From Lysobacter enzymogenes (GTDB taxonomy: Bacteria > Pseudomonadota > Gammaproteobacteria > Xanthomonadales > Xanthomonadaceae), in the NCBI RefSeq assembly GCF_017355525.1, contig NZ_CP067395.1, forward strand, positions 4,681,001 through 4,745,000: a stretch of DNA of 64,000 nucleotides, given 5' to 3'. Each line of letters starts with the position of its first letter. The stretch's first letter is position 1. Shown here piece after piece: positions 5,801 to 33,877 of the stretch. The position numbers and the translations under genes were made by a program. The notes below the pieces were generated by a model. It saw only the letters and a list, made by a program, of their open reading frames with translations. It was not told where the DNA came from and ran no database searches.

Positions 5801-8800
5801 GGCGCGGGCGACGTTGGCGACACGATCACGTATAGCTTTGCGGTCAAGAACACCGGCAATGTGGCGTTGACGAATGTCAACGTGACCGACCCGCTGCTGC
5901 CGAGCTTGACGTGCACGGCGATCACGACGCTGGCGCCGGGTGCGAGCCAGACGCTGATCTGCACGGCGGGCAATGTCTACACGCTGACCCAAGCCGATGT
6001 GGACGCTGGCAAGGTCGATAACACCGCGACCGGCCGAGGCACCACGCCGAGCGGTACCCCGGTGACCGACGACGACAGCAAGACGGTGACGATCACCGCG
6101 GATCCGTCGCTGGAGCTGACCAAGATCGCTGGCGCGATCGTCGACACCGACACTCCGGCGAACGGCGCGGGCGATGTCGGCGATACCATCACCTATACGT
6201 TCGCGGTGAAGAACATCGGCAACGTGGCGTTGACGAATGTCAACGTGACCGACCCGCTGCTGCCGAGCTTGGCGTGCACGGCTATCGCGACGTTGGCGCC
6301 CGGCGCGAGCCAAACGCTAACTTGCAGTGCCGGCAACGTCTATACGCTGACGCAGGCCGACGTGGACAGCGGCAAAGTCGATAACACCGCGACCGGCCGT
6401 GGCACCACGCCGAGCGGTACGCCGGTGACCGACGACGACAGCAAGACGGTGACGATCACCGCGGTCCCGTCGCTGGAGCTGACCAAGACCGCCGGCGCCA
6501 TCGTCGACACCGACACGCCCGCCAACGGCGCGGGCGACATCGGCGACACGATCACCTACACATTCGCGGTGAAGAACACCGGTAATGTTGCGCTGACGAA
6601 TGTCAATGTGACTGACCCGCTGCTGCCGAGCCTGGCGTGCACGGAAATCGCGACGTTGGCCCCGGGCGCGAGTCAGACACTGACTTGCACGGCGGGCAAC
6701 GTCTACACGCTGACGCAGGCCGACGTGGACGCCGGCAAAGTCGACAACACCGCGACCGGTAAGGGCGCCACGCCGAGCGGTACCCCGGTGAGCGACGACG
6801 ACAGCAAGACGGTGACGATCACCTCGGCCCCGTCGCTGGAACTGACCAAGACCGCCGGCACCATCGTCGATACCGATACTCCGGCCAATGGCGCCGGCGA
6901 CGTCGGCGATACGATCACGTATAGCTTTGCGGTCAAGAACACCGGCAATGTGGCGTTGACGAATGTCAACGTGACCGACCCGCTGTTGCCGAGCCTAGCT
7001 TGTACGGCGATCGCGACGTTGGCGCCCGGCGCGAGCCAGACGCTGACTTGCAGTGCCGGCAACGTCTATACGCTGACGCAGGCCGACGTGGACAACGGCA
7101 AGGTCGACAACACCGCGACCGGTAAGGGCACCACGCCGAGCGGTACCCCGGTCACCGACGACGACAGCAAGACGGTGACCATCACCGCGGCCCCGTCGCT
7201 GGAGCTGACCAAGACCGCTGGCGCGATCGTCGACACCGACACTCCGGCCAATGGTGCCGGCGACGTTGGCGACACAATCTCGTATAGCTTTGCGGTCAAG
7301 AACACCGGCAATGTAGCGTTGACCAACGTCAACGTGACCGATCCGCTGCTGCCGAGCCTGACGTGCGCGGCGGTCGCGACGCTGGCACCGGGCGCGACCC
7401 AGACGCTGACCTGCAGTGCCGGCAACGTCTATGCGCTGACCCAGACCGATGTGGACGCTGGCAAGGTCGACAACACTGCGACCGGGAAGGGCACGACGCC
7501 GAGCGGTGGTACCGTGTCGGACGACGACAGCAAGACGGTGACCATCACCGCGGCTCCGTCGTTGGAGCTGACCAAGACCGCTGGCGCGATTGTTGATACC
7601 GACACTCCGGCCAATGGCGCCGGCGACGTCGGCGACACGATCACCTACACGTTCGCGGTAAAGAACACCGGCAATGTGGCGTTGACGAATGTCAATGTGA
7701 CCGACCCGCTGCTGCCGAGCTTGGCGTGCACGGCGATCACGACGCTGGCGCCGGGCGCGAGCCAGACGCTGGTCTGCAGCGCCGGCAACGTCTATACGCT
7801 GACCCAGACCGATGTGGACGCTGGCAAGGTCGACAACACTGCGACCGGCAAGGGCACGACACCGGGCGGCACCCCGGTGACCGACGACGATAGCAAGACG
7901 GTCACCATCGCCGCGGCTCCGTCGTTGGAACTGACCAAGACTGCTGGCGCGATCGTCGATACCGACACTCCGGCTAATGGTGCCGGCGACGTCGGCGACA
8001 CGATCACCTACACGTTCGCGGTAAAGAACACCGGCAATGTGGCGTTGACGAATGTCAATGTGACCGACCCGCTGCTGCCGAGCCTGGCGTGTACGCCAGT
8101 CGCGACGCTGGCGCCGGGCGCGAGCCAGACGCTGAGTTGCACGGCGGGCAACGTCTACACGCTGACCCAGGCCGACGTGAACAACGGCAAGGTCGACAAC
8201 ACCGCGACCGGCAAGGGCACCACGCCGAGCGGTACTCCGGTCACCGACGACGACAGCAAGACAGTGACAATCTCGGCTGCGCCGAACCTGGCGCTGAAGA
8301 AGGAACGCACCGGCCTGGCCGACACCGACAACAGCGGCGGCCTGAGCCTGGGCGACACCTTGACCTATACGGTCACGGCCACCAACACGGGCAACACGAC
8401 CCTGACCAACGTGGTCGTCCGCGACGACAAGATCGCGCCGGCGACGACGACCTGCGCCAGCCTGGCGCCGGGCGGCACTTGCGTGCTGACGGGTGCGTAC
8501 GTGGTCGTGCAGACCGACGTGGACGCCGGCAAGGTGCTCAACAACGCCTTGGTCACCGACCCGACGGTGTGCCCGACCGGATCGACCGATCCGAAGTGCA
8601 AGACCAGCCATGAAGATCCGATTACGGCGGCTCCATCGCTGGAGCTGACCAAGACCGCTGGCGCGATCGTCGACACCGACACTCCGGCGAACGGCGTGGG
8701 CGACGTTGGCGACACGATCACGTATAGCTTTGCGATCAAGAACGCCGGCAACGTGGCGTTGACGAATGTCAACGTGACCGACCCGCTGCTGCCGAGCCTG

Positions 8801-11800
8801 GCGTGTACGGCGGTCGCGACGCTGGCGCCGGGTGCGACCCAGACGCTGACCTGTACGGCAGGCAACGTCTACACGCTGACCCAGGCCGACGTGGACTCCG
8901 GCAAGGTCGACAACACCGCGACCGGCAAGGGCACCACGCCTAGCGGTACGCCGGTCACCGACGACGACAGCAAGACGGTCACTATCGCCGCGGCTCCGTC
9001 GTTGGAACTGACCAAGACCGCTGGTTCGATTGTCGATACCGACACTCCGGCGAACGGCGCGGGCGACGTTGGCGACACGATCACCTATAGCTTTGCGGTG
9101 AAGAACACCGGCAATGTGGCGTTGACGAATGTCAACGTGACCGACCCGCTGCTGCCGAGTCTGGCGTGCACGGCGGTCGCGACGCTGGCCCCGGGTGCGA
9201 CCCAGACCCTGGTCTGCAGTGCCGGCAACGTCTACACGCTGACCCAGGCCGATGTGGATGCCGGCAAGGTCGACAACACCGCGACCGGTAAGGGCACCAC
9301 GCCGAGCGGTACGCCGGTCACCGACGACGACAGCAAGACGGTCGCCATCGCCGCGGCTCCGTCGTTGGAACTGACCAAGACCGCTGGGGCGATTGTCGAT
9401 ACAGACACTCCGGCCAATGGTGCCGGCGACGCTGGCGACACGATCACGTATAGCTTCGCGGTCAAGAACACCGGCAATGTGGCGTTGACCAACGTCAACG
9501 TGACCGACCCGCTGCTGCCGAGCCTGGCGTGCACGGCGATCACGACGTTGGCGCCGGGCGCGAGCCAGACGCTGACCTGCACGGCGGGCAACGTCTACAC
9601 GCTGACCCAAGCCGACGTGAACAACGGCAAGGTCGACAACACCGCGACGGGCAAGGGCACGACGCCGAGCGGTACCCCGGTGAGCGACGACGACAGCAAG
9701 ACAGTGACGATCGCGGCCACACCGAACCTGGCGCTGAAGAAGGAACGCACCGGCCTGACCGACACCGACAACAGCGGCGGTTTGAGCCTGGGCGATACCT
9801 TGACCTATACGGTCACGGCCACCAACACGGGCAACACGACCTTGACCAATGTGGTCGTCCGCGACGACAAGATCGCGCCGGCGACGACGACCTGCGCCAG
9901 CCTGGCGCCGGGCGGCACTTGCGTGCTGACGGGTACGTACGTGGTCGTGCAGGCCGACGTCGACGCCGGCAAGGTGCTCAACAATGCCTTGGTCACCGAC
10001 CCGACGGTGTGTCCGACCGGCTCGACCGATCCGAAGTGCAAGACCAGCCATGAAGAGCCGATTACGGCGGTTCCATCGCTGGAACTGACCAAGACCGCTG
10101 GGGCGATTGTCGATACCGACACTCCCTCCAACGGCGCGGGCGACATCGGCGACACGATCACGTATAGCTTTGCGGTCAAGAACACCGGCAACGTGGCGTT
10201 GACGAATGTCAACGTGACCGACCCGCTGCTGCCGAGCTTGGCGTGCACAGCGATCACGACGCTGGCACCGGGCGCGAGCCAGACGCTGATCTGCAGTGCC
10301 GGCAACGTCTACGTGCTGACGCAGGCCGATGTGGACAGCGGCAAGGTCGATAACACCGCGACAAGCAAGGGCACGACGCCGAGCGGCGGCACCGTGTCCG
10401 ACGACGATAGCAAGACGGTGACGATCACCTCGGCCCCGTCGTTGGAGCTGACCAAGACCGCCGGCACCATCGTCGATACCGACACTCCGGCCAATGGCGC
10501 TGGCGATGTCGGCGACACGATCACCTATAGCTTTGCGGTGAAGAACACCGGCAACGTGGCGTTGACGAATGTCAACGTGACCGATCCGCTGCTGCCGAGC
10601 CTGACGTGCACAGCGGTCGCGACGCTGGCGCCGGGTGCGAATCAGACGCTGACCTGCAGTGCCGGCAACGTCTATACGCTGACGCAGACCGACGTGGACG
10701 CCGGCAAGGTCGACAACACCGCGACCGGTAAGGGCACCACGCCGAGCGGTACGCCGGTTACCGACGACGACAGCAAGACGGTCACCATCGCCGCGGCTCC
10801 GTCGTTGGAACTGACCAAGACCGCTGGGTCGATTGTCGATACCGACACTCCCGCCAACGGTGCCGGCGACGTCGGCTACACGATCACTTACACATTCGCG
10901 GTGAAGAACACCGGCAATGTGGCGTTGACGAACGTCAACGTGACTGACCCGCTGCTGCCTAGCCTGGCGTGTACGGCGATCGCGACGTTGGCCCCGGGTG
11001 CGAGTCAGACGCTGACCTGCAGTGCCGGCAACGTCTACGTGCTGACGCAGACCGATGTAGATAACGGCAAGGTCGACAACACCGCGACGGGCAAGGGCAC
11101 GACGCCGAGCGGTGGCACCGTGTCGGACGACGACAGCAAGACGGTGACCATCACCGCGGCTCCGTCGTTGGAGCTGACCAAGACCGCTGGCGCGATTGTT
11201 GATACCGACACTCCGGCCAATGGCGCCGGCGACGTCGGCGACACGATCACCTACACGTTCGCGGTAAAGAACACCGGCAATGTGGCGTTGACGAATGTCA
11301 ATGTGACCGACCCGCTGCTGCCGAGCTTGGCGTGCACGGCGATCACGACGCTGGCGCCGGGCGCGAGCCAGACGCTGGTCTGCAGTGCCGGCAACGTCTA
11401 CGTGCTGACGCAGACCGATGTAGATAACGGAAAGGTCGATAACACTGCGACCGGCAAGGGTACGACGCCGAGCGGTACGCCGGTCACCGACGATGACAGC
11501 AAGACTGTGATGATCACCTCGGCCCCGTCGTTGGAGCTGACCAAGACCGCCGGCACCATCGTCGATACCGACACCCCGGCGAACGGCGCGGGCGATGTCG
11601 GCGACACGATCACTTACACATTCGCGGTGAAGAACACCGGCAACGTTGCGTTGACGAATGTCAACGTGACCGACCCGCTGCTGCCGAGCCTGGCGTGTAC
11701 GGCGGTCGCGACGCTGGCGCCCGGCGTGAGCCAGGCGCTGACTTGCAGTGCCGGCAACGTCTACACGCTGACCCAGGCCGACGTGAACAATGGCAAGGTC

Positions 11801-14800
11801 GACAACACCGCGACCGGCAAGGGCACCACGCCGAGCGGCACGCCGGTCACCGACGACGACAGCAAGACAGTGACGATCGCGGCCACACCGAACCTGGCGC
11901 TGAAGAAGGAACGCACCGGCCTGACCGACACCGACAACAGCGGCGGCCTGAGCCTGGGCGACACCTTGACCTATACGGTCACGGCCACCAACACAGGCAA
12001 CACGACCCTGACCAACGTGGTCGTCCGCGACGACAAGATCGCACCGGCGACGACAACCTGCGCCAGCCTGGCGCCGGGCGGCACTTGCGTGCTGACGGGT
12101 ACGTACGTGGTCGTGCAGGCCGACGTCGACGCCGGCAAGGTGCTCAACAACGCCTTGGTCACCGACCCGACGGTGTGCCCGACCGGCTCGACCGATCCGA
12201 AGTGCAAGACCAGCCACGAGGAGCCGATCGCGCGCACGGCCGACCTGACGTCCGTCAAGTCCGTGACCGCCAACGCCGATGAGGACGGCAGCCATGGCGT
12301 GACCGTCGGCGACACTCTGACGTACTCCATCATCGTGACCAACATCGGCACCGTGCCGCTGACCCATGTGGTGGTCAGCGACAACAAGATCACGCCGAGC
12401 ACCACCACCTGCGCCACCGTCGCGCCGAGCCAGAACTGCGTGCTGACCGGCACGTACAAGGTCGCCTTGGCCGATGCCAACGCCGGCATCGTGCGCAACG
12501 CCGCGACCGTGACGGCGGAAACGCCGCCGGGCGTGCCGTCGCCGTGCGCGGCGGGCGCGACCGATCCCAAGTGCACTCCCAAGCACGACGAGCCGGTGGT
12601 CCAGGCGCCGGGTCTGAAGTCGGCGAAGACGATGGACCGCAACGCCGACGAAGACGGCGATGGCCGGGTCAGCGTCGGCGACACCTTGACGTACTCGATC
12701 ACCGCGACCAACACCGGCAACACGACCCTGATCGATGTGGTGGTGACCGACAGCAAGATCGCGCCGAACACGATCGCCTGCGCCAGCGTGGCGCCGGGCG
12801 GCACCTGCGTGCTGACCGGTACCTACAAGGTGGTGCAGGCCGATGTGGACGCCGCCGCCGTGGTCAATACCGCGACGGTGACCACCACCACGGCCAACGT
12901 GTGTCCGGCCGGTTCCACCGATGCGGCGTGCAAGCCGACCGTCACCGTGCCGATCCAGGCGCGTCCGGCCGTGGACATCCGCAAGGTCGCGACCCTGAGC
13001 GTCGACAACGGCACCCCGGGCGTGGGCAACGTCGGCGACGTCGTCAGCTACGCCGTGCGCATCACCAACACGGGCAACATCAGCTTGAACGAGATGGCCA
13101 CCCGCGACGTGTTGCAGAACTACGCGCCGACCCAGCTCAAGTGCGGCGCCGCGACGCTCGCGCCGGGCGCGGCCGTCGACTGCGAGGTCTACACCCACAC
13201 CATCACCCGCGACGAAGCCCGCGCCGCCGGCACGCTGGACAACGTCGTCACGGTGACCGCGAAGTACGGCAGCGTCGGCGGTGGCGGCCAGACCACCGGC
13301 ACCGCGACCGCGACCAGCACCGCGATCATGCGGGTCGAGCCCGATCCGAGCACCGATCTGGTGGTCAGCAAGGAAGCGCGCCCGCAACGGGTCAAGATCG
13401 GCGATCTGGTGCGTTACACCGTGACCATCAAGAACGTCGGCGACACCGATGCGATCGACGCGGTGCTGACCGATACTCCGCCGGCCGGCTTCAGCCTGGT
13501 CGACGGCAGCCTGCAGGTCGCCGACCGCGACGGCCAGGGCCGGCTCATCGGCACCTACCCGGTCGGCGTGGACGGCATCGACGTCCAGGCCGGCCAGTCG
13601 GCCACAGTGGTCTACCTGCTGCGCGTCGGCGCCGCGGTGCGGCCCGGCAGCCACGTCAACAGCGCCTACGCCGAAGACGGCGGCAAGCGTTCCAACGTCG
13701 CCACCGCGTCGGTGGAACTGGCGTCCGATCCGATGCTGGACGATTCGCTGCTGATCGGCACCGTGTTCGACGACCGCGACGAAGACCGCTGGCAGGATCC
13801 GGCCAGCCTGACCGATCTGCGCGTGCAGGGCGGCTTCGCGCCGGGCGCTTACATCGCCCACTCGACCACGGTCGACCGCGGCGACGGCGCCAAACCCGAG
13901 CCGGACGCGAGTTCGCCGATGCTGCACGGCATCGACCTGGGCAAGCTCGCCGGCCGCCAGTCGGACGCCGATCCGGTCGCCGCGCATACGGTCACGATCA
14001 GCCAGTTGCTGCGCGAGCCGAGCTTCACCGACGACTTCGCGCTGACCAACGAGCAGGGCGTCACCGTGCGCATGGACGCGGCCGGCAACACCCGGGTGGA
14101 ACGCAGCGGCGATGCCGCCAAGGGCCTCACCGGCGCCGACCCGAAGGTCGAACGCCGCGTTGCGAAGGCCGAGGGCGGCTATCGCGTCGACTACATCGTG
14201 AGCAATCGCGGCGTCGACGAACGCGGCGTCCCCGGCGTGCGCGTGGCGTCGGTGGAAGGCCTGCTGGTCGAAACCGACCAGTTCGGCCGCTACCACCTGG
14301 AAGGCGTGGCCGGCGGTCCGTGGGAGCGCGGCCGCAACTTCATCCTCAAAGTCGATCCGGCGACCTTGCCGCCGGGCAGCAAACTCACCACCGACAACCC
14401 GCTGGTGCGTCGACTGACCCCGGGCGTTCCGGTGCGCTTCGACTTCGGCGTCAAGCTGCCGCCGGGCGAGATCCCCGGGCCGAAGCAGGACGTGGAGATG
14501 CGCATCGGCGAGGTGTTCTTCGATGCCGGCAGCGCCGAGGTCAAGCCCGCTTACCTGCCGGCGGTCGAGACCATGGCCGCCAAGGTGCGCGAGTACGGCG
14601 GCGGCGAAGTGGTCATCACCGCCGACGGCGAAAGCCAGGCGCTGGCGATGGATCGCGCCCTGGCCGTGCGCAAGGCGCTGGAGTCGAAACTGACGCCGGA
14701 TCTGCTGAAAGCCCTGCAGATAAGCGTGCGCACCGACGCCCGCGATCCGGACACGATGGTGGTGGGTTTCGCCGAATGGCCCAAGCTCGGCGAAGTCCTG

Positions 14801-21269: not shown

Positions 21270-21283
21270 TTGATCCGAATCAA
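21270..21283. promoter_or_regulatory. FNR-type box upstream of the two-component genes
   Basis: TTGATCCGAATCAA fits the FNR/Anr consensus TTGAT-N4-ATCAA perfectly. It lies 115 nt upstream of the response regulator start and in no coding region. It is one of four such boxes between 21270 and 27334. Confidence 0.75.
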
Positions 21284-21397
21284 GTTCCGCGCGTTCCGCA
21301 GCGCAGCGCCGCAGCGCGCCACGCCGCGCTATTGCCGCTGGGCACGAATCGCTCCATGCTGCGCGCACTACGGCCCGTCCGCCTGCGAGTGAGCGCG

Positions 21398-22135
21398 ATG
21401 TCCTCCAAATCCAGCGACGCCGTCCCGGCCGCGCAGCCGCGGCTGCTGCTGGTCGACGACGACGCCGACATCCTCGCGCTGTTGGCGCGCTACCTCGGCG
21501 CCAACGGCTGCAAGACCGCGGCCGCCGCCAGCGCGGCGCAGGCGCGCGCGGCGGTGGCCTTGGGCGGCATCGATCTGGTCCTGCTCGACCTGGGCCTGCC
21601 CGACGAAGACGGCCTGTCGCTGCTGCGCCATCTGCAAACCCAATGGCGCGGCCCGGTGATCGTGGTCAGCGGCCGCGGCGACGCGGTCGACCGCGTGGTC
21701 GGCCTGGAACTGGGCGCCGACGATTACCTGGCCAAACCCTTCGATCTGCGCGAACTGCTGGCGCGGGTGCGCTCGGTGCTGCGGCGCGCGTCCGCGCCGG
21801 CGCTGGCGCCGGCAGGCGAGAGCCTCGCGTTCGAGGGCTTCCGCCTGGAGCTGTCCGCGCGCCGGCTGACCGACGCGGCCGGCGCCGAAATCGCCTTGAC
21901 TACCGGCGAATTCCAGCTGCTGCGCGCGTTGTTGCAGCGGCCGCAGCAAGTGCTCAGCCGCGACGAGCTGATGAACGCGCTGCACGGCCGCGAGGCCGGG
22001 CCGTACGACCGCACCATCGATGTCGCGGTCGGCCGCCTGCGGCGCAAGCTCGAATCCGATCCGTCCGCGCCGAGCCTGATCAAGGCCGTGCGCGGCGCCG
22101 GCTATCTGTTCGCCGCCGCGGTCAGCGCGACATGA
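21398..22135 (+). CDS. OmpR/PhoB-family response regulator
   Basis: This 245-residue regulator has a receiver domain (residues about 15-125) with the acidic pair DDD at 20-22 and the phospho-acceptor Asp64 in LVLLDLGLPDEDG. A winged-helix domain (about 140-240) contains DRTIDVAVGRLRRKLE and AVRGAGYLF, typical of OmpR-type DNA binding. The ATG at 21398 was chosen because it places the receiver domain at the normal distance. The stop overlaps the kinase start (ATGA), so the pair is translationally coupled. The FNR box upstream suggests low-oxygen induction. Target genes are unknown, but phased GTAAC repeats at 25087-25111 are a candidate site. Confidence 0.92.
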   Translation: MSSKSSDAVPAAQPRLLLVDDDADILALLARYLGANGCKTAAAASAAQARAAVALGGIDLVLLDLGLPDEDGLSLLRHLQTQWRGPVIVVSGRGDAVDRVVGLELGADDYLAKPFDLRELLARVRSVLRRASAPALAPAGESLAFEGFRLELSARRLTDAAGAEIALTTGEFQLLRALLQRPQQVLSRDELMNALHGREAGPYDRTIDVAVGRLRRKLESDPSAPSLIKAVRGAGYLFAAAVSAT

Positions 22136-24135
22136 GCGCCGACGCCTCCTTCGACGGCCTGTTCGAAGCGGTGCCCGACGCGCTGCTGCTGGTCGACGGC
22201 GACGGCCGCATCGTCCAGGCCAACGCCCAGGCCGAGCGCCTGTTCGGCTATGCGCCGGGTGAGTTGCTGGGCAAGGACGTGGAGGCGCTGATCCCGTCCG
22301 CCGCGCGCGAGCGCCATCGCGGCTATCGCCAGCACTACATGGCGCGTCCGCACGTGCGGCCGATGGGCGTGAGCGGGCAGAGCCTGATCGGCCTGCGCCC
22401 GGACGGCACCCAGTTTCCGGTGGAAATCGCGCTGAGCCCGATCGGCGGCGCGCACGGGCCGCGCTATCTGGCTTCGGTGCGCGACATCTCCGAAACCCAG
22501 CGCGCGCGCCAGGCGCTGGTGCGCGCGCGCTACGACGCGCTGGCCGCGCGCATCGGCCAGCTCGCGCTGGAAGCGCAGGACGAGTCGGGCGTGGTCGATG
22601 CCTTGCCGCGCTTGCTCGCCGATGCGCTCGACATTCCGGCGGTGGCGGTGCTGTTCGTGTCCGGCGACAGCCAGAGCGTCGAGATCCGCGCCAGCGTCGG
22701 CCTCGACGACGATGCCGCGGCGCCGGCGCTGGACGAAGCCGCGCTGCTGGCCGACGTCGGCGCCGGCGAAACCCGGGTGGTCGACGATTTCGCCGCCGCC
22801 GCTTCGCGTTTTCCGTTGCGCGCCGCCGCCGGCAGCGGCGTGCTGGTGCCGCTGTTCGACCGCGGCCGGCCGATGGGCGCGCTGCTGGCGCGCGCGCCGC
22901 GGCCGCGCCATTTCGATCACGACGCGCTGCACTTGTTGCGGTCGGTCGCGCACCTGGCCGCCGCGTTCGTGCAGCGCCGCCGCACCGAGGAGCAACTGGC
23001 GCATTCGCAGCGGCTGGACGCGATCGGCCAGCTCACCGGCGGCATCGCCCACGACTTCAACAATCTGCTGACGGTGATGTCCGGCAGCCTGCAATTGCTG
23101 GAACTGGAATGCGCCGACACGCCCGAGGCCGGCGAGCTGATCGCCAGCGCCTTGCGCTCGGCCGGCCGCGGCGCCGAGCTCACCGGCAAGCTGCTCGCGT
23201 TCGCGCGCCGCCAGCGGCTGAGCCCGCGCGCGGTCGACGTGCCGGCGCTGCTGCGCGATGTCGAAAGCATGCTCAAGCGCACCCTCGGCGACAGCGTGCA
23301 CCTGCACGTGGAATGCGTCGCGCCGCTGGCGGCGGCGTATGCCGACCCGAGCCAGCTGGAGGCGGCGCTGCTGAACCTCGCGCTCAACGCGCGCGATGCG
23401 ATGCCGCGCGGCGGCGAGATCGCGATCGAAGCCCGCGCGCACGAAGCCGCCGCGCGCCCTGGCGGCGACGACGACGGCGAACTGGCGGCCGGCGATTACC
23501 TGCGCATCCTGGTCGCCGACACCGGCCGCGGCATGGCCCCGGAGACGCTGGCGCGGGCGATGGAACCGTTCTTCACCACCAAGGAAGCCGGGCGCGGCAG
23601 CGGCCTGGGCCTGAGCATGGTCTACGGCTTCGCCAAACAGAGCGGCGGCGACCTGCGCATCGACAGCGCGTTGGGCTACGGCACCCGGGTGGAACTGTTC
23701 CTGCCGGCCGCGCGCGCGCCCGCGGCCGCGCCGGCGCCGCCGGGCGGCGCGCACGCGCCGGGCCGCGGCGAGACCGTGCTGGTGGTCGAGGACGACGCGG
23801 CGGTGCGGGCGATCGCGCTGGCGTTCCTGCGCGCCTCGGGCTATCGCGCCGCCGCGGTGGCCAGCGCCGGCGAAGCCCTGCGCTATCTGGCCGGCGACGG
23901 CGAAGCGGCGGCGATGTTCAGCGACGTCATGCTCGGCGAGGGCATGAACGGCAAGGACCTGGCGGCCGCGGCGCGGCGTTTGCGGCCGGGCCTGCCGGTG
24001 GTGCTGACCTCGGGTTACGAGACCGAAACCGCGAACGCCGGCGAAGCGTTCGACTTGCTGCGCAAGCCGTACCGGCGCGAGCAGGTGGCCGCGGCGATCG
24101 CGCGCGCGATCGGGCCGCGGCGCGAGGGCGGCTGA
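22132..24135 (+). CDS. hybrid sensor histidine kinase (PAS-GAF-HisKA-HATPase-REC)
   Basis: The product has 667 residues and no membrane segments, so it is a cytoplasmic sensor. A PAS domain (about 8-125) is followed by a GAF-like domain (about 140-285). The phospho-acceptor His307 lies in LTGGIAHDFNNLL. The ATPase domain has LNLALNARDAM, DTGRGM and GSGLGLSMVYGF, and a C-terminal receiver (about 545-665) carries Asp598. A His in the PAS domain (His62, in ERHRGY) aligns roughly with the FixL heme ligand region, but the same motif is common in ordinary PAS domains, so heme binding is speculative. It is coupled to the response regulator and sits in a redox-themed block. The terminal receiver may shape phosphate flow to the regulator. 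Confidence 0.9.
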   Translation: MSADASFDGLFEAVPDALLLVDGDGRIVQANAQAERLFGYAPGELLGKDVEALIPSAARERHRGYRQHYMARPHVRPMGVSGQSLIGLRPDGTQFPVEIALSPIGGAHGPRYLASVRDISETQRARQALVRARYDALAARIGQLALEAQDESGVVDALPRLLADALDIPAVAVLFVSGDSQSVEIRASVGLDDDAAAPALDEAALLADVGAGETRVVDDFAAAASRFPLRAAAGSGVLVPLFDRGRPMGALLARAPRPRHFDHDALHLLRSVAHLAAAFVQRRRTEEQLAHSQRLDAIGQLTGGIAHDFNNLLTVMSGSLQLLELECADTPEAGELIASALRSAGRGAELTGKLLAFARRQRLSPRAVDVPALLRDVESMLKRTLGDSVHLHVECVAPLAAAYADPSQLEAALLNLALNARDAMPRGGEIAIEARAHEAAARPGGDDDGELAAGDYLRILVADTGRGMAPETLARAMEPFFTTKEAGRGSGLGLSMVYGFAKQSGGDLRIDSALGYGTRVELFLPAARAPAAAPAPPGGAHAPGRGETVLVVEDDAAVRAIALAFLRASGYRAAAVASAGEALRYLAGDGEAAAMFSDVMLGEGMNGKDLAAAARRLRPGLPVVLTSGYETETANAGEAFDLLRKPYRREQVAAAIARAIGPRREGG

Positions 24136-24281: not shown

Positions 24282-25013
24282 TCAGTGCACCCGGCCGCCG
24301 ACAGCGAGCAACTCGCTGAGCGCGGCGCGGTCGCGCAGAACGATTTCGCGGCCCGCCACTTCGATCAGCCCGCGTGCTTGCAGGCGCGACAACGAGCGCG
24401 TCACCGTTTCCAACGTCAGCGACAGGAAATTGCCGAGTTCGGCGCGGGTCATGCGCAACTGCAGGCGTTCGCCGCTGAAGCCGAGCGCGTGCAGGCGCGC
24501 GGCCAGGTCGAACAGGAAGGTCACCACGCGCTGGTCGGCGCCGAGCGTGCCCAGCGCCAGCATCCAGGTCCAGTCGCGGCGGATCTCGCCCGCGAGCAAC
24601 GCGGTGATGCGCTCCTGGAACTGCGGCAGCTCGTGGCGCAAGCGCGCGAACGGCACTTCCCACAGCTCGCCGGTGTCCAGCGCGACCGCGTCGCAGGCGT
24701 AGGCGCTCATGTCCAGCGCGTCCAGGCCGAGCAGGTCGCCGCGCAGGCGGAAGCCGGTGATCTTCTCGCGTCCGTCTTCGCTGACCAGCGCGGTCTTGAA
24801 GCAGCCGGCGTGGACCAGATACAGCGCCGTGCGCGGCTGCCCGGCGCGGAACACATGCTGCTTGGCGCGCACCCGCCGGCGTTGCAGCGGCCAGCCGCGG
24901 CGCAGCAGCTCGCGTTGCAGCCACGACTCCAGGCCGTCGTCTCCGGCTTGCGCCGCGTCGGCGCAGGCGGCAGCGGAGTCGGGTTCGGCATAAGCGGCGT
25001 GTTCGAGCAACAT
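24282..25013 (-). CDS. Crp/Fnr-family regulator without iron-sulfur cysteines
   Basis: This 243-residue protein has a cyclic-nucleotide-type beta-roll (about 50-125) and a C-terminal winged helix. The recognition helix reads LSLTLETVTRSLSRLQ, with Glu202, Thr205 and Arg206 in the places of FNR Glu209, Ser212 and Arg213; this predicts TTGAT-type sites. Cysteines occur only at 17, 71 and 107. The N-terminal FNR cluster Cys set and the Cys122 equivalent (here Trp in LWEVPF) are missing, so it should not hold the oxygen-sensing 4Fe-4S cluster. It may be of the Dnr/FixK type, sensing another signal or controlled by its level. FNR boxes surround it, which makes it the obvious local reader. The start is the ATG at 25013. 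Confidence 0.85.
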   Translation of the reverse strand: MLLEHAAYAEPDSAAACADAAQAGDDGLESWLQRELLRRGWPLQRRRVRAKQHVFRAGQPRTALYLVHAGCFKTALVSEDGREKITGFRLRGDLLGLDALDMSAYACDAVALDTGELWEVPFARLRHELPQFQERITALLAGEIRRDWTWMLALGTLGADQRVVTFLFDLAARLHALGFSGERLQLRMTRAELGNFLSLTLETVTRSLSRLQARGLIEVAGREIVLRDRAALSELLAVGGRVH

Positions 25014-25145: not shown

Positions 25146-25159
25146 TTGATCCCGATCAA
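25146..25159. promoter_or_regulatory. FNR-type box upstream of the NrdJ-like gene
   Basis: TTGATCCCGATCAA is a perfect TTGAT-N4-ATCAA box. If centred at -41.5, transcription toward the right would start near 25194, 33 nt before the proposed GTG start at 25227, with a weak -10 (CAAAGT, 25181). It could also act on the divergent Crp/Fnr gene. Confidence 0.75.
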
Positions 25160-25226: not shown

Positions 25227-26090
25227 GTGACCCGCCTGACCCGATTCACCGATGCGCATGCCGTCGACCTGTGGGACCGGCGCTTCCGCTGGCGCAGCGG
25301 CGAGCGCCTGCGCGACCGCACGGTCGACGCGACCTGGCAGCGGGTCGCCGCGGCGCTCGGCGGCGGCGGCGGCGACGCCGGCTATTGGCGCAGCCGTTAT
25401 GCCGCCGCGTTCGGCGCCTGGCAGATCCTGCCCGACCCGCGCCTGCTGCGCCGCGCCGGCACCGAGCGCGCGGTGCCGCCGCTGCGCGCGCCGCGCGCGG
25501 CGCTCAACGCCGGCGCGTTCGTGCTCGAACCCGGCGGCGCGCGCGCGCGTTTCGATTTCGAACGGTTCGCCGCGGTCGCGGCGCTGGCGGTGCGCCTGCT
25601 CGACGACGCGGCCGAAGCGTTCGGCGCGGACGCCACGGCGCCGTTGCGCCTGGAAGTGGGCCTGATCGGGCTCGCCGACGCGTTCGCGCTGATGGGCGTG
25701 GATTATCTCGGCGAACGCGCGCCGCCGCTGGCGCAGTCGGTCGCGCGGTCGTTGGCCCTGGGCGCCCTGCAAGGCGCGGCGCGCCTGGCACGCGAGCGCG
25801 GCGAGCGCGGCGACGGCGCGCCGCTGGCGCGGCTGTGGGCCTCGCGCGAGGCGCCGGCGGTGTTGCTGGATGCGGCTGCGAACAACCGCCGCCATGCGCG
25901 CCTGACCCGGTTGCGGCCGCAGCCGTCGCTGGCGCGGTTGGCGAACGGCGCCAGCGACGGGATCGAGCCGGCGTGCGCGCGGGTCGGCGCGGGCGAGGGC
26001 GCCACGACGCACGCCTTGCGTACGGCGCGGGCCGCCATCGCCGCAGCGATGCAGCCGTGGATCGACGCGCCGCTGCGAACGCGGCCGTAG
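25227..26090 (+). CDS. shortened class II ribonucleotide reductase-like protein
   Basis: The 287-residue product shows several landmarks of B12-dependent (class II) ribonucleotide reductase large chains in the right order. These are an N-terminal segment (AVDLWDRRFRWRSGERLRD, then GYWRSRYAAAFGAWQILP), a middle FDFERFAAVAALAVRLLDD, then VGLIGLADAFALMGVDY and NNRRHARLTRLRP with ANGASDGIEPAC. Full enzymes have 700 residues or more. Here the catalytic core, with its radical and redox cysteines, is missing between residues about 80 and 95, so it cannot be an active reductase of the normal kind. The GTG at 25227 has a GGAAG site 4 nt before it; upstream codons overlap the FNR box. It could be a decaying gene or a repurposed regulator-like relic. 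Confidence 0.65.
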   Translation: MTRLTRFTDAHAVDLWDRRFRWRSGERLRDRTVDATWQRVAAALGGGGGDAGYWRSRYAAAFGAWQILPDPRLLRRAGTERAVPPLRAPRAALNAGAFVLEPGGARARFDFERFAAVAALAVRLLDDAAEAFGADATAPLRLEVGLIGLADAFALMGVDYLGERAPPLAQSVARSLALGALQGAARLARERGERGDGAPLARLWASREAPAVLLDAAANNRRHARLTRLRPQPSLARLANGASDGIEPACARVGAGEGATTHALRTARAAIAAAMQPWIDAPLRTRP

Positions 26091-26104
26091 CGGCGGTCGC
26101 CCCC

Positions 26105-26239
26105 TGTAGGAGCGGCGCGAGCCGCGACCGCGAAACCGCGACTACGACGAAACCGACGCGATCCCGCGTCTGCTCAACGGCGAGCCGCGGCTCGCGCCGT
26201 AAGCGCGGTTTCGCGGTCGCGGCTCGCGCCGCTCCTACA
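26105..26239. repeat. REP-like element with 36-bp perfect inverted arms
   Basis: The left arm (26105-26140) begins TGTAGGAGCGGCGCGAGC and the right arm (26204-26239) is its exact reverse complement over 36 bp, with a 63-nt centre. C5 and G5 runs flank the arms. A single-arm relative occurs at 33674-33697. It lies between converging genes and may also end transcription. Elements of this sequence are common intergenic repeats in Xanthomonadaceae. Confidence 0.85.
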
Positions 26240-26261
26240 AGGGGGAGCAGGCGTAGCGTCC

Positions 26262-27098
26262 TCAGTGCCCGAAGAACACCGGCAACTGCGCCGATTGCAG
26301 CAACTCCCGGGTGACGCCGCCGAGCACCCATTCGCGCAGCCGCGAATGCCCGTAACCGCCGGCGACCAGCAACTGCACGCCGCTGCGTTCGGCGTAGTCC
26401 AGCAGCGCGACGGCGACGTCGCGGTCGCCGCCGCGCAGGCTGACCAGATCGGTCGGAATGCTGTGGCGGACCAGGTGCGCGACCATGCGCCGTGCCGAAT
26501 CCAGCGCCGGATCGTCGTCGCCCTGACCGATCACCACCAGTTCCACCAGCCCGGCTTCGGCCAGCAGCGGCAGCGCGTCGTGCACCGCGCGGGTGGTCTG
26601 GCGCGTGGGCTGCCAGGCGATCATCGCGCGCCGCAGCGGCAGGGTCGGGCCACTGTTCGGCGGCACCACCAGCAGCGGCCGGCCGGATTCGAGCAGCAGC
26701 GCGGTGAACCACGCATGCAGCGCGGCGACGCCGTGGGCGCGGCCGCCGATGCCGGCGAGCACGCAGACATCGGCGTCGAAGGCTTCGCGCGCGACCGTAT
26801 GCGGCGCATCGGCGTACAGCGCTTCGACCACGCGCGCGTCCCAACTCACGGTTTCGTCGTCGAGGCGGTTCTTCAAGTCGGCCAGGCGCTGCTGCCCGTG
26901 CTCGCGCAATTCCTCGTAGACCGCACCGCAGGTCGGATCCGGAACCAGATCCCAGGCGTGGCCGATCGGCACCGGCAGATCGACGCTTTCCAGCACCGCC
27001 AGACGCGCGCTGTGGCGCGCGGCCAGCTTCACCGCCAGACGCAGCGCATCGGCATCGCCGGCGTCGCCGGTCATCGCAATCATCAGGTCCTTGTACAT
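26262..27098 (-). CDS. universal stress protein, tandem UspA domains
   Basis: The 278-residue protein begins MYKDLMIAMTGDAGDADALRLAVKLA and has two UspA-like halves. The second half shows the ATP-binding pattern VAGGYGHSRLREWVLGGVTRELL, close to the G-x2-G-x9-G(S/T) motif. The first half lacks a clear ATP motif. Such tandem proteins are induced under low oxygen or respiratory stress in other proteobacteria. The ATG at 27098 has a GGAGA ribosome site 8 nt upstream. An FNR-type box 64 nt upstream of the start supports anaerobic-type control. It is divergent from the cytochrome bd operon. Confidence 0.88.
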   Translation of the reverse strand: MYKDLMIAMTGDAGDADALRLAVKLAARHSARLAVLESVDLPVPIGHAWDLVPDPTCGAVYEELREHGQQRLADLKNRLDDETVSWDARVVEALYADAPHTVAREAFDADVCVLAGIGGRAHGVAALHAWFTALLLESGRPLLVVPPNSGPTLPLRRAMIAWQPTRQTTRAVHDALPLLAEAGLVELVVIGQGDDDPALDSARRMVAHLVRHSIPTDLVSLRGGDRDVAVALLDYAERSGVQLLVAGGYGHSRLREWVLGGVTRELLQSAQLPVFFGH

Positions 27099-27161: not shown

Positions 27162-27175
27162 TTGACCCGGATCAA
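27162..27175. promoter_or_regulatory. FNR-type box for the universal stress gene
   Basis: TTGACCCGGATCAA fits TTGA(T/C)-N4-ATCAA with one change. For the leftward gene, a start point 41.5 nt from its centre (about 27127) would place a -10 at TGTACT (minus strand, 27140-27135), matching 4 of 6 consensus bases. Confidence 0.65.
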
Positions 27176-27320: not shown

Positions 27321-27334
27321 TTGACCTGGATCAA
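27321..27334. promoter_or_regulatory. FNR-type box for the cytochrome bd operon
   Basis: TTGACCTGGATCAA fits TTGA(T/C)-N4-ATCAA with one change. With the box centre at -41.5, the start point falls near 27369 and a -10 of TGCAAT (27357-27362) lies in the expected place. This is the layout of a class II FNR-activated promoter, 20 nt before cydP. Confidence 0.7.
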
Positions 27335-27602: not shown

Positions 27603-29165
27603 ATGCCGGACCTGTACGTCGTCGATCTGTCGCGCCTGCAATTCGCGCTGACTGCGCTCTACCACTTCCTGTTCGTGCCGTTGACCATCGGCCTGGCGCT
27701 GATCCTGGCGATCATGGAAAGCGTCTACGTGATGAGCGGGCGCGTCATCTGGAAACAGATGACCCGGTTCTGGGGCGTGCTGTTCGGCATCAACTTCGCC
27801 ATGGGCGTGGCGACCGGCATCACCATGGAATTCCAGTTCGGCACCAACTGGGCCTATTACTCGCACTACGTCGGCGACATCTTCGGCGCGCCGCTGGCGA
27901 TCGAAGGGCTGATGGCGTTCTTCCTGGAGAGCACCTTCGTCGGCTTGTTCTTCTTCGGCTGGGACCGGCTCAGCAAGCTGCAGCACCTCACTGTGACCTG
28001 GCTGACCGCGCTCGGCGCGAACCTGTCGGCGCTGTGGATCCTGATCGCCAACGGCTGGATGCAGAACCCGGTCGGCGCCGAATTCAACTTCCACACCATG
28101 CGCATGGAGATCACCGACTTCGCCGCGGTGGTGTTCAACCCGGTCGCGCAGGCCAAGTTCGTCCACACCGTCAGCGCCGGCTACGTCACCGGCGCGATGT
28201 TCGTGCTGTCGATCAGCGCCTGGTACCTGCTGCGCGGGCGCAACGTCGAGATCGCCAAGCGTTCGATGGTGGTGGCGGCGAGCTTCGGTCTCGCCTCGGC
28301 GCTGTCGGTGGCGGTGCTCGGCGACGAGAGCGGCTACACCGCCTCGGAAAACCAGAAGATGAAGGTCGCCGCGATCGAAGCCGAGTGGCGCACCCATCCG
28401 GCGCCGGCCGCGTTCACCCTGTTCGGCCTGCCGAACATGCAAACGCGCGAGACCGAATACGCCGTGCGCATTCCCTGGGCGATGGGCCTGATCGCCACGC
28501 GTTCGCTCGACAAGGAGGTGCCCGGCATCCACGACCTGGTCGAGGAGAATCGCGAACGCATCCGCCGCGGCATCGTCGCCTATCAGGCGCTGCGCGAACT
28601 GCGCGCCGACCGCGACAACCCCGACAAGCAAGCTGCGTTCCTGGCCGTGCGCGAGGACCTGGGCTTCGGCCTGCTGACCTTGCGCTACACCCTGGATCCG
28701 GCCACCGCCAGCGAAGCGGTCATCGACCGCGCCGCGTGGAGCACGGTGCCGAACGTGCCGGTGCTGTTCTGGTCGTTCCGGATCATGGTCGGCTTGGGCT
28801 TCTTCTTCATCGTCCTGTTCGCCGCGGCGTTCTATCTGGCCGCGCGCAACCAGCTGGAAAAACGCTGGTTCCTGCGGCTGGCGCTGTGCAGCCTGCCGCT
28901 GCCGTGGGTCGCGGCGGAACTGGGCTGGATCGTCGCCGAATACGGCCGCCAGCCCTGGGCCATCGACGGCGTGCTGCCGACCTTCCTCGGCGTGTCGGCG
29001 ACCAATTCGACGCAAGTGATCGTTAGCCTGATCGGCTTCGTCGTGCTCTACACCGGGCTGGCCGTGGTCGACGCGGTGCTGATGCTGCGCGCGATCCGCT
29101 CCGGGCCCGACCGGCTGAAGTTCTGGCCCGCCACCCGCCAAGCCCACGCCGCGCACACCGTCTGA
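27603..29165 (+). CDS. cydA: cytochrome bd ubiquinol oxidase subunit I
   Basis: This 520-residue membrane protein carries the hemes b558, b595 and d. His21 (in TALYHFLFVPLTIG) corresponds to the N-terminal heme ligand and GRQPW near the C-terminus is the family signature. The quinol (Q) loop is long (from PNMQTRETEYAVRIP to about LRYTLDP) and resembles the E. coli type rather than the short-loop CioA type. The enzyme oxidises ubiquinol and reduces oxygen with high affinity in the inner membrane. It is part of cydP-cydA-cydB-cydX-ybgE with gaps of 10 nt or less. The FNR box upstream predicts induction at low oxygen. Confidence 0.97.
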   Translation: MPDLYVVDLSRLQFALTALYHFLFVPLTIGLALILAIMESVYVMSGRVIWKQMTRFWGVLFGINFAMGVATGITMEFQFGTNWAYYSHYVGDIFGAPLAIEGLMAFFLESTFVGLFFFGWDRLSKLQHLTVTWLTALGANLSALWILIANGWMQNPVGAEFNFHTMRMEITDFAAVVFNPVAQAKFVHTVSAGYVTGAMFVLSISAWYLLRGRNVEIAKRSMVVAASFGLASALSVAVLGDESGYTASENQKMKVAAIEAEWRTHPAPAAFTLFGLPNMQTRETEYAVRIPWAMGLIATRSLDKEVPGIHDLVEENRERIRRGIVAYQALRELRADRDNPDKQAAFLAVREDLGFGLLTLRYTLDPATASEAVIDRAAWSTVPNVPVLFWSFRIMVGLGFFFIVLFAAAFYLAARNQLEKRWFLRLALCSLPLPWVAAELGWIVAEYGRQPWAIDGVLPTFLGVSATNSTQVIVSLIGFVVLYTGLAVVDAVLMLRAIRSGPDRLKFWPATRQAHAAHTV

Positions 29166-29174
29166 GGCCCCGTC

Positions 29175-30308
29175 ATGATCGATTACGAACTGTTGCGCGA
29201 ACTGTGGTGGCTGTTGCTCGGTGTGTTGCTGATCGGCTTCGCCGTCACCGACGGCTACGACCTGGGCCTGGGCGCGATCCTGCGCCTGATCGGCCGCGAC
29301 GATGTCGAGCGGCGCATGGCGCTGGAAGCGATCGAGCCGAACTGGGAAGGCAACCAGGTCTGGTTCATCCTCGGCGGCGGCGCGGTGTTCGCGGCCTGGC
29401 CGCTGCTGTACGCGGCCTCGTTCTCGGCGTTCTACTTCGCCATGTTCCTGCTGCTGGTGGCGCTGATCCTGCGTCCGGTCGGCTTCGCGTTCCGCAACCG
29501 CCTGCCGCATGCGCGCTGGCGCGGCGCCTGGGACTGGGCGCTGACCATCGCCGGCGCGGTGCCGTCGCTGGTGTTCGGCGTGGCCTTCGGCAATCTGTTC
29601 CTCGGCGTGCCGTTCCACTTCACCGACGAACTGCTGCCGGTGTTCGACGGCAGCTTCCTCGGCCTGTTCCATCCGTTCGCGCTGCTGGCCGGCGCGGTCA
29701 GCCTGTCGATGCTGGTCATGCACGGCGCCAGCTATGCCGCGATGCGGGTCGAGGACCCGGTCGGCGCGCGCGCGCGGCGCATCGCCCGCATCGCCGCGTT
29801 GGCGGCCGCGGCTGCGTTCGCCGCGGGCGGCGTGTGGCTGCGCACGCTGCCGGGTTCGGCCATCGTAGGCGCCTGGAGCACTGGCGCGCCGTCGGATCCG
29901 CTGGCCAAGCAGGCGATCGCGGTCGACGGCGGCTGGTTGGCGAACTATGCCCTGCAGCCGTGGCTGATCGCGCTGCCGGCGCTGGCGTTCGCGGCCTTGC
30001 TGGCGGTGGCGCTGCTGGGTTCGCGCAAGTGGAGCTTCATCGCCAGCGGCACGGCGGTGGCCTGCATCATCCTCACCGCGGGCGCGTCGCTGTTTCCGTT
30101 CCTGCTGCCCTCGGCCACCGATCCCGCGCACGGCCTGACCGTGTGGGACGCCTCGTCGAGCCAGCGCACGCTGGGCATCATGCTGGTCGCCGCGGCGATC
30201 TTCCTGCCGCTGATCCTGGCCTACAGCGCGTGGGCGTTCCGGGTCATGCGCGGCACCGTCACCCGCGCCCACGTGCAGGCGCAGGGCGAACACGAAGGAG
30301 GTTACTGA
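29175..30308 (+). CDS. cydB: cytochrome bd ubiquinol oxidase subunit II
   Basis: The 377-residue protein has about eight to nine membrane helices and begins MIDYELLRELWWLLLGVLLIG with the conserved FAVTDGYDLGLG stretch. WEGNQVWFILGGGA follows, as in CydB proteins. It pairs with CydA to form the bd oxidase core in the inner membrane. It starts 9 nt after cydA and its stop overlaps the cydX start by one base (TGATG), so translation is coupled. Length is normal for the family. Confidence 0.97.
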   Translation: MIDYELLRELWWLLLGVLLIGFAVTDGYDLGLGAILRLIGRDDVERRMALEAIEPNWEGNQVWFILGGGAVFAAWPLLYAASFSAFYFAMFLLLVALILRPVGFAFRNRLPHARWRGAWDWALTIAGAVPSLVFGVAFGNLFLGVPFHFTDELLPVFDGSFLGLFHPFALLAGAVSLSMLVMHGASYAAMRVEDPVGARARRIARIAALAAAAAFAAGGVWLRTLPGSAIVGAWSTGAPSDPLAKQAIAVDGGWLANYALQPWLIALPALAFAALLAVALLGSRKWSFIASGTAVACIILTAGASLFPFLLPSATDPAHGLTVWDASSSQRTLGIMLVAAAIFLPLILAYSAWAFRVMRGTVTRAHVQAQGEHEGGY

Positions 30309-32760: not shown

Positions 32761-33678
32761 ATGGATTGGGACGACCTCAAGATCGCCTTGGCGATCGCGC
32801 GCCACGGCAGCCTCAGCGCGGCGGCGCGCGCGCTCGGCAGCACCCAGCCCACGGTCGGCCGGCGCCTGGACGCGCTCGAGCAGGGCCTGGGCGCGAAACT
32901 GTTCGAACGCGAAGCCGGCGGCATGCGCGCCAACGCGCTCGGCCGCAGCCTGCTGGAAGGCCTGGAGCAGATGGACGCCGGCGCGCTGGCGGTGCAGCGG
33001 CGCATCGCCGCGCGCGATACCGGGCTCGACGGCGCGTTGACGGTGACCAGCCTGGATTGGCTCGGCGACGAAGTGGTCGCGCCGATGCTGGCGCGCTTCG
33101 GCGCCTTGCATCCGGGCGTGGATCTGGAACTGGTCAACGACGTGCGGGTGTTCAATCTGGCCCGGCGCGAAGCCGATCTGGCGTTCCGCTTCGGCCCGTT
33201 CGCGCAGGAGAATCTGATCGAGCGCCGGATCGGCGAAGTCGCTTACGCGTTGTACGCGAGCCAGGCCTATCTCGACCGCCACGGCCGGCCCGATCCGGCC
33301 GACGGCTGCGACGGCCACGCCCTGGTGCTGATGGATCGCGCCGCCGGCGCGGTCGCGCACGAAGCCTGGCTGCCGCCGCTGGCGCCGCGCGCGCGGGTGG
33401 CGCTGCGCGCCAACGGCCTGCGCGCGCATCTGTCCGCGGTGCGCGAAGGCGCGGCGATGGCGGTGCTGCCGTGCTGGCTCGGCGAACGCGAGCCGGACCT
33501 GCGGCGCCTGGATCTGGCCCCGCAGCCGGTGGTGCGCGCGGTGCGGGTCGGCTTCCATTCGGACATGCGGCAAACCCCGCGCCTGCGCGCGCTGGTGGAT
33601 TTCGCCGTCGCCGAATTCGAACGCGAGGCCGACCGCCTGTGCCCACCCGCCCTGCGTCCGCAGACGCGCCCCCTGTAG
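32761..33678 (+). CDS. LysR-family transcriptional regulator
   Basis: The 305-residue protein begins MDWDDLKIALAIARHGSLSAAARALGSTQPTVGRRLDALEQ (in part), a standard LysR winged helix, followed by an effector-binding domain. It is divergent from the VOC-SDR genes, whose start is 163 nt away. Regulation of that pair is likely. The stop codon TAG lies inside a copy of the TGTAGGAGCGGC intergenic repeat, so the C-terminal end (RPQTRPL) may have been set by repeat insertion. Confidence 0.9.
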   Translation: MDWDDLKIALAIARHGSLSAAARALGSTQPTVGRRLDALEQGLGAKLFEREAGGMRANALGRSLLEGLEQMDAGALAVQRRIAARDTGLDGALTVTSLDWLGDEVVAPMLARFGALHPGVDLELVNDVRVFNLARREADLAFRFGPFAQENLIERRIGEVAYALYASQAYLDRHGRPDPADGCDGHALVLMDRAAGAVAHEAWLPPLAPRARVALRANGLRAHLSAVREGAAMAVLPCWLGEREPDLRRLDLAPQPVVRAVRVGFHSDMRQTPRLRALVDFAVAEFEREADRLCPPALRPQTRPL

Positions 33679-33697
33679 GAGCGGCGCAAGCCGCGAC
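33674..33697 (+). repeat. single-arm copy of the TGTAGGAGCGGC repeat
   Basis: This stretch matches the first 24 nt of the left arm at 26105 with one difference (CGCAAGCC for CGCGAGCC). It has no opposite arm nearby. It supplies the stop codon of the LysR gene. Confidence 0.7.
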
Positions 33698-33877
33698 AAC
33701 GCACCTGCGGTGCCACCGCGAGCACACAACGAAAACGAGGCGTTAACGTAATCTCGACCACGCTGAAGCGCGCCTGCACGCGCCTGCGCATCGTCACCGC
33801 GAAACAACTTCGCCTGCGCGAGGATCGATCCACGAGCTCGGGTTCCCCGATGCGCCACATGCCGCAGGAGGTTTCGC

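Follow-up and report, generated by a model that had tools for sequence, protein, structure and literature searches.

Can a ribonucleotide reductase (RNR) that has lost its catalytic centre still serve the cell that keeps it? The question is raised by a short gene in a 64,000-nucleotide stretch of Lysobacter enzymogenes DNA (contig NZ_CP067395.1, positions 4,681,001 to 4,745,000; hereafter the window), which belongs to a complete 5.95-Mb genome (G000). An earlier note, made from the letters alone, had described the gene as a shrunken relative of the class II RNR NrdJ with a clean open reading frame (ORF), a ribosome site and a perfect FNR box, and had proposed a kept but altered role. The answer that we favour, with a probability of about 0.65, is that the gene is a selected, non-catalytic descendant of NrdJ that is switched on at low oxygen and has a binding role, likely docking on a protein.

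A short NrdJ relative without catalytic residues

The gene occupies the following position:

25227 to 26090, + strand: short NrdJ-derived protein, 287 residues, non-catalytic (RNR barrel-domain match, 49-member family, structural model, no catalytic residues)

Its frame runs from a GTG start without internal stops, and GGAAG lies a few bases 5' of the GTG; the clean frame and the ribosome site of the earlier note were thus both recovered. The longer start offered by the ORF finder, TTG at 25146, falls within the FNR-type box described below and is unlikely to be used. The closest named relatives are from Lysobacter, and in three named Lysobacter records the homologue is labelled 'hypothetical protein'.

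Profile searches returned the proposed RNR relationship. The Pfam model PF02867 (Ribonuc_red_lgC, the RNR barrel domain) matches residues 92–252 with 32.2 bits against a gathering cut-off of 23.9, and at E ≤ 0.001 it matches 47 of the 49 homologues (193–361 residues) found in a protein search; PF00317 (Ribonuc_red_lgN, the N-terminal all-alpha RNR domain) matches 24 of the 49 at the same threshold, the window protein not among them. Candidates in the protein search were limited to 0.55–1.75 of the query length, hence full NrdJ could not appear. The NCBIfam matches are partial, PRK06948 (2.3e-12) and NrdJ_Z (1.1e-10) both lying far under their cut-offs; the best model, NF005401 / PRK06948, scores 46.4 bits and does not reach its cut-off of 906, as would be expected of a partial relative. 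A PDB sequence search gave weak RNR matches only (best 0.016), and for this reason the homology claim leans on profiles, alignment and fold. The AlphaFold model is confident and aligns to NrdJ; the fold search displayed RNR rows only, and other folds may match as well.

Aligned to full NrdJ, the short chain spans the N-terminal block as far as 'AGT' (residue 79), picking up again near residue 88. From the AGT landmark to the second redox position there are 8 residues in the window protein and 225 in the full-length reference L065, so that about 217 are missing. The central catalytic part is therefore absent, as the earlier note had it, but the loss is wider than it had stated: fewer residues separate the SGIEP block from QPWID, and nothing remains of the C-terminal segment past QPxxD.

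When 31 short rows were aligned with 40 full-length ones, N-x-C-x-E, which holds the radical cysteine, N and E, proved to be a gap in every short row and present in every full-length row; none of the 39 distinct short proteins from all loci has it. The first redox cysteine is a gap in 31/31 short rows and present in 37/40 full-length rows, and the second redox position is a cysteine in 0/31 and 40/40, respectively. The PTGTIS motif, which we take to bind phosphate, is rewritten in the short rows (G to P in 28/31, S to A in 31/31), and neither SKT nor the C-terminal cysteine survives unaltered. The specificity site (helices A and B, loops 1 and 2) would presumably lie within the missing stretch. 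The replacement of PTGTIS together with the lost catalytic region argues against ordinary substrate binding, and RNR catalysis by the short protein is excluded as far as its sequence can be read.

Many alignment positions are invariant among the short forms. Near-invariant tryptophans specific to them (W22 and W65 in 31/31 rows, W278 in 94%) occupy positions that are usually Y or F in full NrdJ, and these may plug the exposed core. The conserved polar residues are D17, R21, R23, R39, N94, N240 and D280. Further C-terminal loss is seen in the Lysobacter short forms. One ancestral in-frame loss would have taken the first half of the catalytic barrel and the finger loop but spared the second half-barrel as well as the N-terminal helical domain, and the last strands would have been lost later in some members, Lysobacter included.

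Descent, promoter and selection

A genome scan without length restriction gave 80 loci. Those numbered L008–L030 (23) are short, and L031–L087 are longer NrdJ forms, except for L083, a fragment at a contig edge. Two long NrdJ-like frames (L035 and L071) lack NxCxE in the frame taken and may be frameshifts or other inactive forms. The 39 distinct short proteins, counted where the N-terminal anchor was recognisable, are all intact, and this survey of relatives came out in favour of the earlier note: short forms recur as open frames with no scattered frameshifts. A full NrdJ stands elsewhere in the gene's own genome. In a tree of 71 rows over shared columns, all short rows fall on one side of a single branch with a support of 100 in the Shimodaira–Hasegawa-like approximate likelihood ratio test (SH-aLRT), from a quick search with no bootstrap, a long stem and midpoint rooting only.

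The short gene is present in 25 of 395 genomes of the family, in 11 of the 20 of the window's genus and in 12 of the 299 of an order sample, which makes 33 genomes in total (the 25 of the family sample and 8 more from the order sample); L024, L025 and L028 are placed at the level of Proteobacteria only. When 398 genomes were drawn evenly from across the phylum, 49 had a match at E ≤ 1e-20, of which only two (G000 and G631, both from the same order) have the short form, the remaining listed matches being open frames of at least 577 residues. A mobile origin was rejected: plasmid and phage collections gave zero matches to the short gene at E 1e-5, PADLOC gave none, and PHROGs returned RNR models only.

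Three promoter-type elements are of note:

25146 to 25159, no strand assigned: perfect FNR/FixK-type box TTGATCCCGATCAA in the short-gene promoter, pattern TTGAT-N4-ATCAA
25181 to 25186, + strand: -10-like hexamer CAAAGT, 21 nt past the box, at class II activator spacing (weak alone, 3/6 match)
21270 to 21283, no strand assigned: another perfect FNR-type box, in front of the two-component operon

The perfect pattern occurs twice in the window and in none of 100 shuffles, and the box reported by the earlier note stands. Among 38 loci, 34 have a box with at most two mismatches to TTGAT-N4-ATCAA located 107–131 nt 5' of the WD codon (0 mismatches in 9, 1 in 14 and 2 in 11), whereas random 400-bp windows from the same loci reach this in 17.6%; the count omits L142, which has no anchor, and ten duplicate loci, and includes both of the near-identical L018 and L023. 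The best TATAAT-like hexamer lies 20–23 nt past the box in 27 of 32 loci (L023, L115, L159 and the boxless L021, L024 and L025 left out), though the surrounding sequence has diverged. At the level of sequence, different genera and families have thus kept both the box and the promoter spacing, and a box with a -10 at class II spacing makes this a predicted FNR/FixK-type promoter.

Upstream of the response regulator, boxes vary among relatives, with at most one mismatch in part of the loci only. The nearest full-length NrdJ genes of the order have boxes with 1–2 mismatches at three of four loci (L150, L151 and L152, but not L153), which fits inherited control of the short gene; no close box was found in the promoters of far full-length NrdJ, 10 of these 23 loci giving no anchor. 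Elsewhere in the window, a coding-looking tandem array (3560–11878, period 363 bp, 23 copies, 82% matches) has a TTGAC-N4-GTCAA palindrome in most units (18 matches), which calls for caution in box scans of the window.

Ratios of nonsynonymous to synonymous substitution rates (dN/dS) were computed by the Nei–Gojobori method for nine species pairs. They are 0.215–0.424 for the short gene, 0.125–0.220 for the neighbouring histidine kinase, 0.126–0.264 for the response regulator, 0.069–0.488 for the universal stress protein and 0.069–0.232 for CydA. The short frame is thus under purifying selection, looser than that on the two-component genes. The earlier note's view of a kept, altered role rather than decay is supported by these ratios, the 39 intact relatives, the conserved box and two co-inherited regulators, with the qualification that the two-component genes beside the short gene evolve more slowly than it does.

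Regulators, neighbours and competing explanations

The gene lies among the following features:

24282 to 25013, − strand: divergent FNR-like regulator, 243 residues (cNMP_binding, HTH_Crp_2), without the FNR N-terminal cysteine set
22132 to 24135, + strand: hybrid histidine kinase, PAS-GAF-HisKA-HATPase-receiver (domain matches), co-inherited with the short gene
21398 to 22135, + strand: OmpR-type response regulator (Response_reg, Trans_reg_C); ATG start chosen, the ORF list having TTG at 21332
26262 to 27098, − strand: convergent universal stress protein (Usp match)
27603 to 30308, + strand: cydA and cydB, cytochrome bd oxidase subunits I and II (domain matches)
27162 to 27175, no strand assigned: degenerate FNR-type box TTGACCCGGATCAA, preceding the universal stress gene by about 64 bp
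27321 to 27334, no strand assigned: degenerate FNR-type box TTGACCTGGATCAA, upstream of cydA

Judged by eye from their sequences, genes for phosphoketolase, acetate kinase, alcohol dehydrogenase and GNAT proteins belong to the wider islands of relatives. Between the convergent short and stress genes is an inverted repeat (26100–26149 and 26195–26244) with 50-nt arms that are 92% complementary; a third copy of its core lies at 33674–33698 with 2 mismatches, and it looks like an element of the repetitive extragenic palindromic (REP) type.

The divergent regulator scores 150.6 bits with the Fnr model, whose cut-off is 228, and 0–2 cysteines precede its effector domain in 27/27 sequences. An oxygen-sensing FNR has three N-terminal cysteines in its iron–sulphur site, and the neighbouring regulator lacks this set. 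Its recognition helix reads ETV-x-R, which we take to be associated with TTGAT sites. Regulators of this kind (E ≤ 1e-20) are encoded by a single gene per genome in the window's genus and by none in the nine members without the short gene; the cysteine-poor regulator may be the sole one of its genome.

Co-inheritance was assessed in 41 genomes, 30 with the short gene and 11 chosen without it; G241, G430 and G454 (82–86% complete) were left out. At orthologue thresholds of at least 590 bits for the kinase and at least 178 bits for the regulator, both are found in 30/30 genomes with the short gene and in 1/11 without it (G822), the compared genomes being related and the counts not independent events. 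In the window's genus, kinase and regulator occur in exactly the same 11 of 20 genomes as the short gene. The 720–750-residue NrdJ is uninformative because it is present in all 41.

Gene order varies in a few genomes. G384 has two short copies (L161 and L162), each beside its own FNR-like regulator, and the kinase adjoins just one. Instead of diverging, the regulator, the kinase and the short gene all point the same way in G343 and G528. The island of G822 has a full-length 633-residue NrdJ (L150) in place of the short gene, about 5 kb from the kinase operon and with FNR-like boxes near its start; it is a possible view of the ancestral state. Near kinase loci without the short gene, no NrdJ was found in the 20 loci read, one of which (L199) is a second kinase locus in a genome that has the short gene.

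In the explanation that we prefer, low oxygen or a related respiratory signal would lead the cysteine-poor FNR/FixK-like regulator and the PAS/GAF kinase system to activate the short gene, at the same time as the bd oxidase and the stress proteins. The short protein would then act by binding rather than chemistry, most likely docking on a protein partner through the face exposed by the missing half-barrel. The neighbouring regulator is ranked as the first candidate partner because the two genes form a tight pair and were duplicated together in G384; the second candidate is the cell's own RNR.

Several points weigh against this explanation. The short gene is absent from 9 of the 20 genomes of its own genus and is therefore dispensable. 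In the order sample the kinase is present in 38 genomes, among them all 12 that carry the short gene; in the remaining 26 the system works in its absence, so that the short gene is no required part. Of 30 genomes, 3 have the regulator apart from the short gene, at a distance of 3 kb in G343 and in G528 and of about 26 kb in G667. L021, L024 and L025 have no box, with a universal stress gene directly upstream instead, and the box of L026 has 3 mismatches. The short gene evolves faster than the response regulator and kinase (0.12–0.26). The AlphaFold models were built on an RNR-family alignment, and their likeness to NrdJ is no independent evidence. Finally, we only infer the choice between the two candidate partners.

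The rival that survives best, which we nevertheless regard as unlikely, makes the short protein a modulator of the cell's own RNR (class I NrdA or the 754-residue NrdJ) that tunes deoxynucleotide (dNTP) synthesis in oxygen shortage. Its RNR ancestry would suit this role, as would the NrdA and putative 754-residue NrdJ that the genome retains and the 720–750-residue NrdJ of all 30 short-gene genomes. However, the same NrdJ is present in 11/11 genomes without the short gene, hence there is no specific link, and the subunit-pairing helices A and B would belong to the missing half. Somewhat less probable still is that the half-barrel pseudoenzyme is a sensing or antagonist partner of the cysteine-poor regulator, relaying nucleotide, cobamide or redox state to the low-oxygen switch. 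It is doubtful, slightly more so, that the short protein is a ligand sensor whose kept or gained pocket (cobamide, nucleotide or heme-like) reports to the neighbouring regulator: the conserved polar residues, the gene pair and the regulator's want of FNR's own sensing cysteines speak for it, but the motifs for catalysis and phosphate binding have been lost or rewritten, and most conserved residues are common to full NrdJ and may be structural.

Decay of the short gene is unlikely. A slowly decaying relic, still transcribed and functionless, would account for the patchy distribution across the family, for a dN/dS above that of kinase, response regulator and cydA in most pairs and for the C-terminal loss in Lysobacter; the distinct intact copies, the many invariant residues, a dN/dS well below 1 and the conserved box and promoter spacing led us to reject it, and we give it little credence. 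A split enzyme with its middle supplied in trans, of the kind represented by the split NrdJ of pseudomonads, is scarcely credible, as the complete genome has only three PF02867 places, two of them full length, with no separate middle, and the substrate-side PTGTIS is rewritten as well.

Comparison with known systems

That a non-catalytic NrdJ descendant is kept under a low-oxygen-type switch suggests that an old enzyme has been given new work. A half-barrel family with a persisting fold, selection and a low-oxygen promoter would show that an essential RNR fold is open to non-catalytic takeover in cells, and nature would thereby have set up an experiment on what portion of the barrel can fold by itself. 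The short gene would also add to an FNR/FixK-type low-oxygen island a member that had no name before. With FixLJ–FixK, ANR/FNR-type regulons and the Burkholderia lxa locus (PMC9104464) it has in common a two-component system, an FNR-family regulator, a bd oxidase and several universal stress proteins; the response regulator of the window is instead OmpR-type, and no short RNR appeared in the passages on these systems.

The best structural match is the class II adenosylcobalamin-dependent NrdJ (Thermotoga maritima 1XJ*/3O0*; the proteobacterial L065 and L097 of about 600–640 residues), with which the short protein shares descent along all of its remaining chain. It differs in lacking the central residues, catalytic and redox positions among them, and the C-terminal redox tail, and in its rewritten PTGTIS. 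The 'ribonucleotide reductase-like protein' NF005401 / PRK06948 is a 604-position family, and the eight closest full-length matches that were translated (L088–L095) are full chains with NxCxE. Class O resembles the short family in reduced size, being described as a distinct class of minimal RNRs averaging 412 residues (eLife 2022, PMC9531940), whereas the short family is without the catalytic motif.

Searches of open-licence PMC papers listed no bacterial RNR-derived inactive protein, and the catalytically dead RNR relatives among their results came from herpesviruses only. Two accounts describe the inactive large-subunit homologues UL45 and vIRA/M45 (PMC5469499, PMC12845177). Compared with the short family, the herpesvirus homologues are viral, much longer, not half-barrels and without the shared regulation. 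They have binding roles, and UL45, vIRA/M45 and also BORF2 offer a parallel in manner of working: an RNR large-subunit fold that no longer catalyses and has been turned to the binding of proteins.
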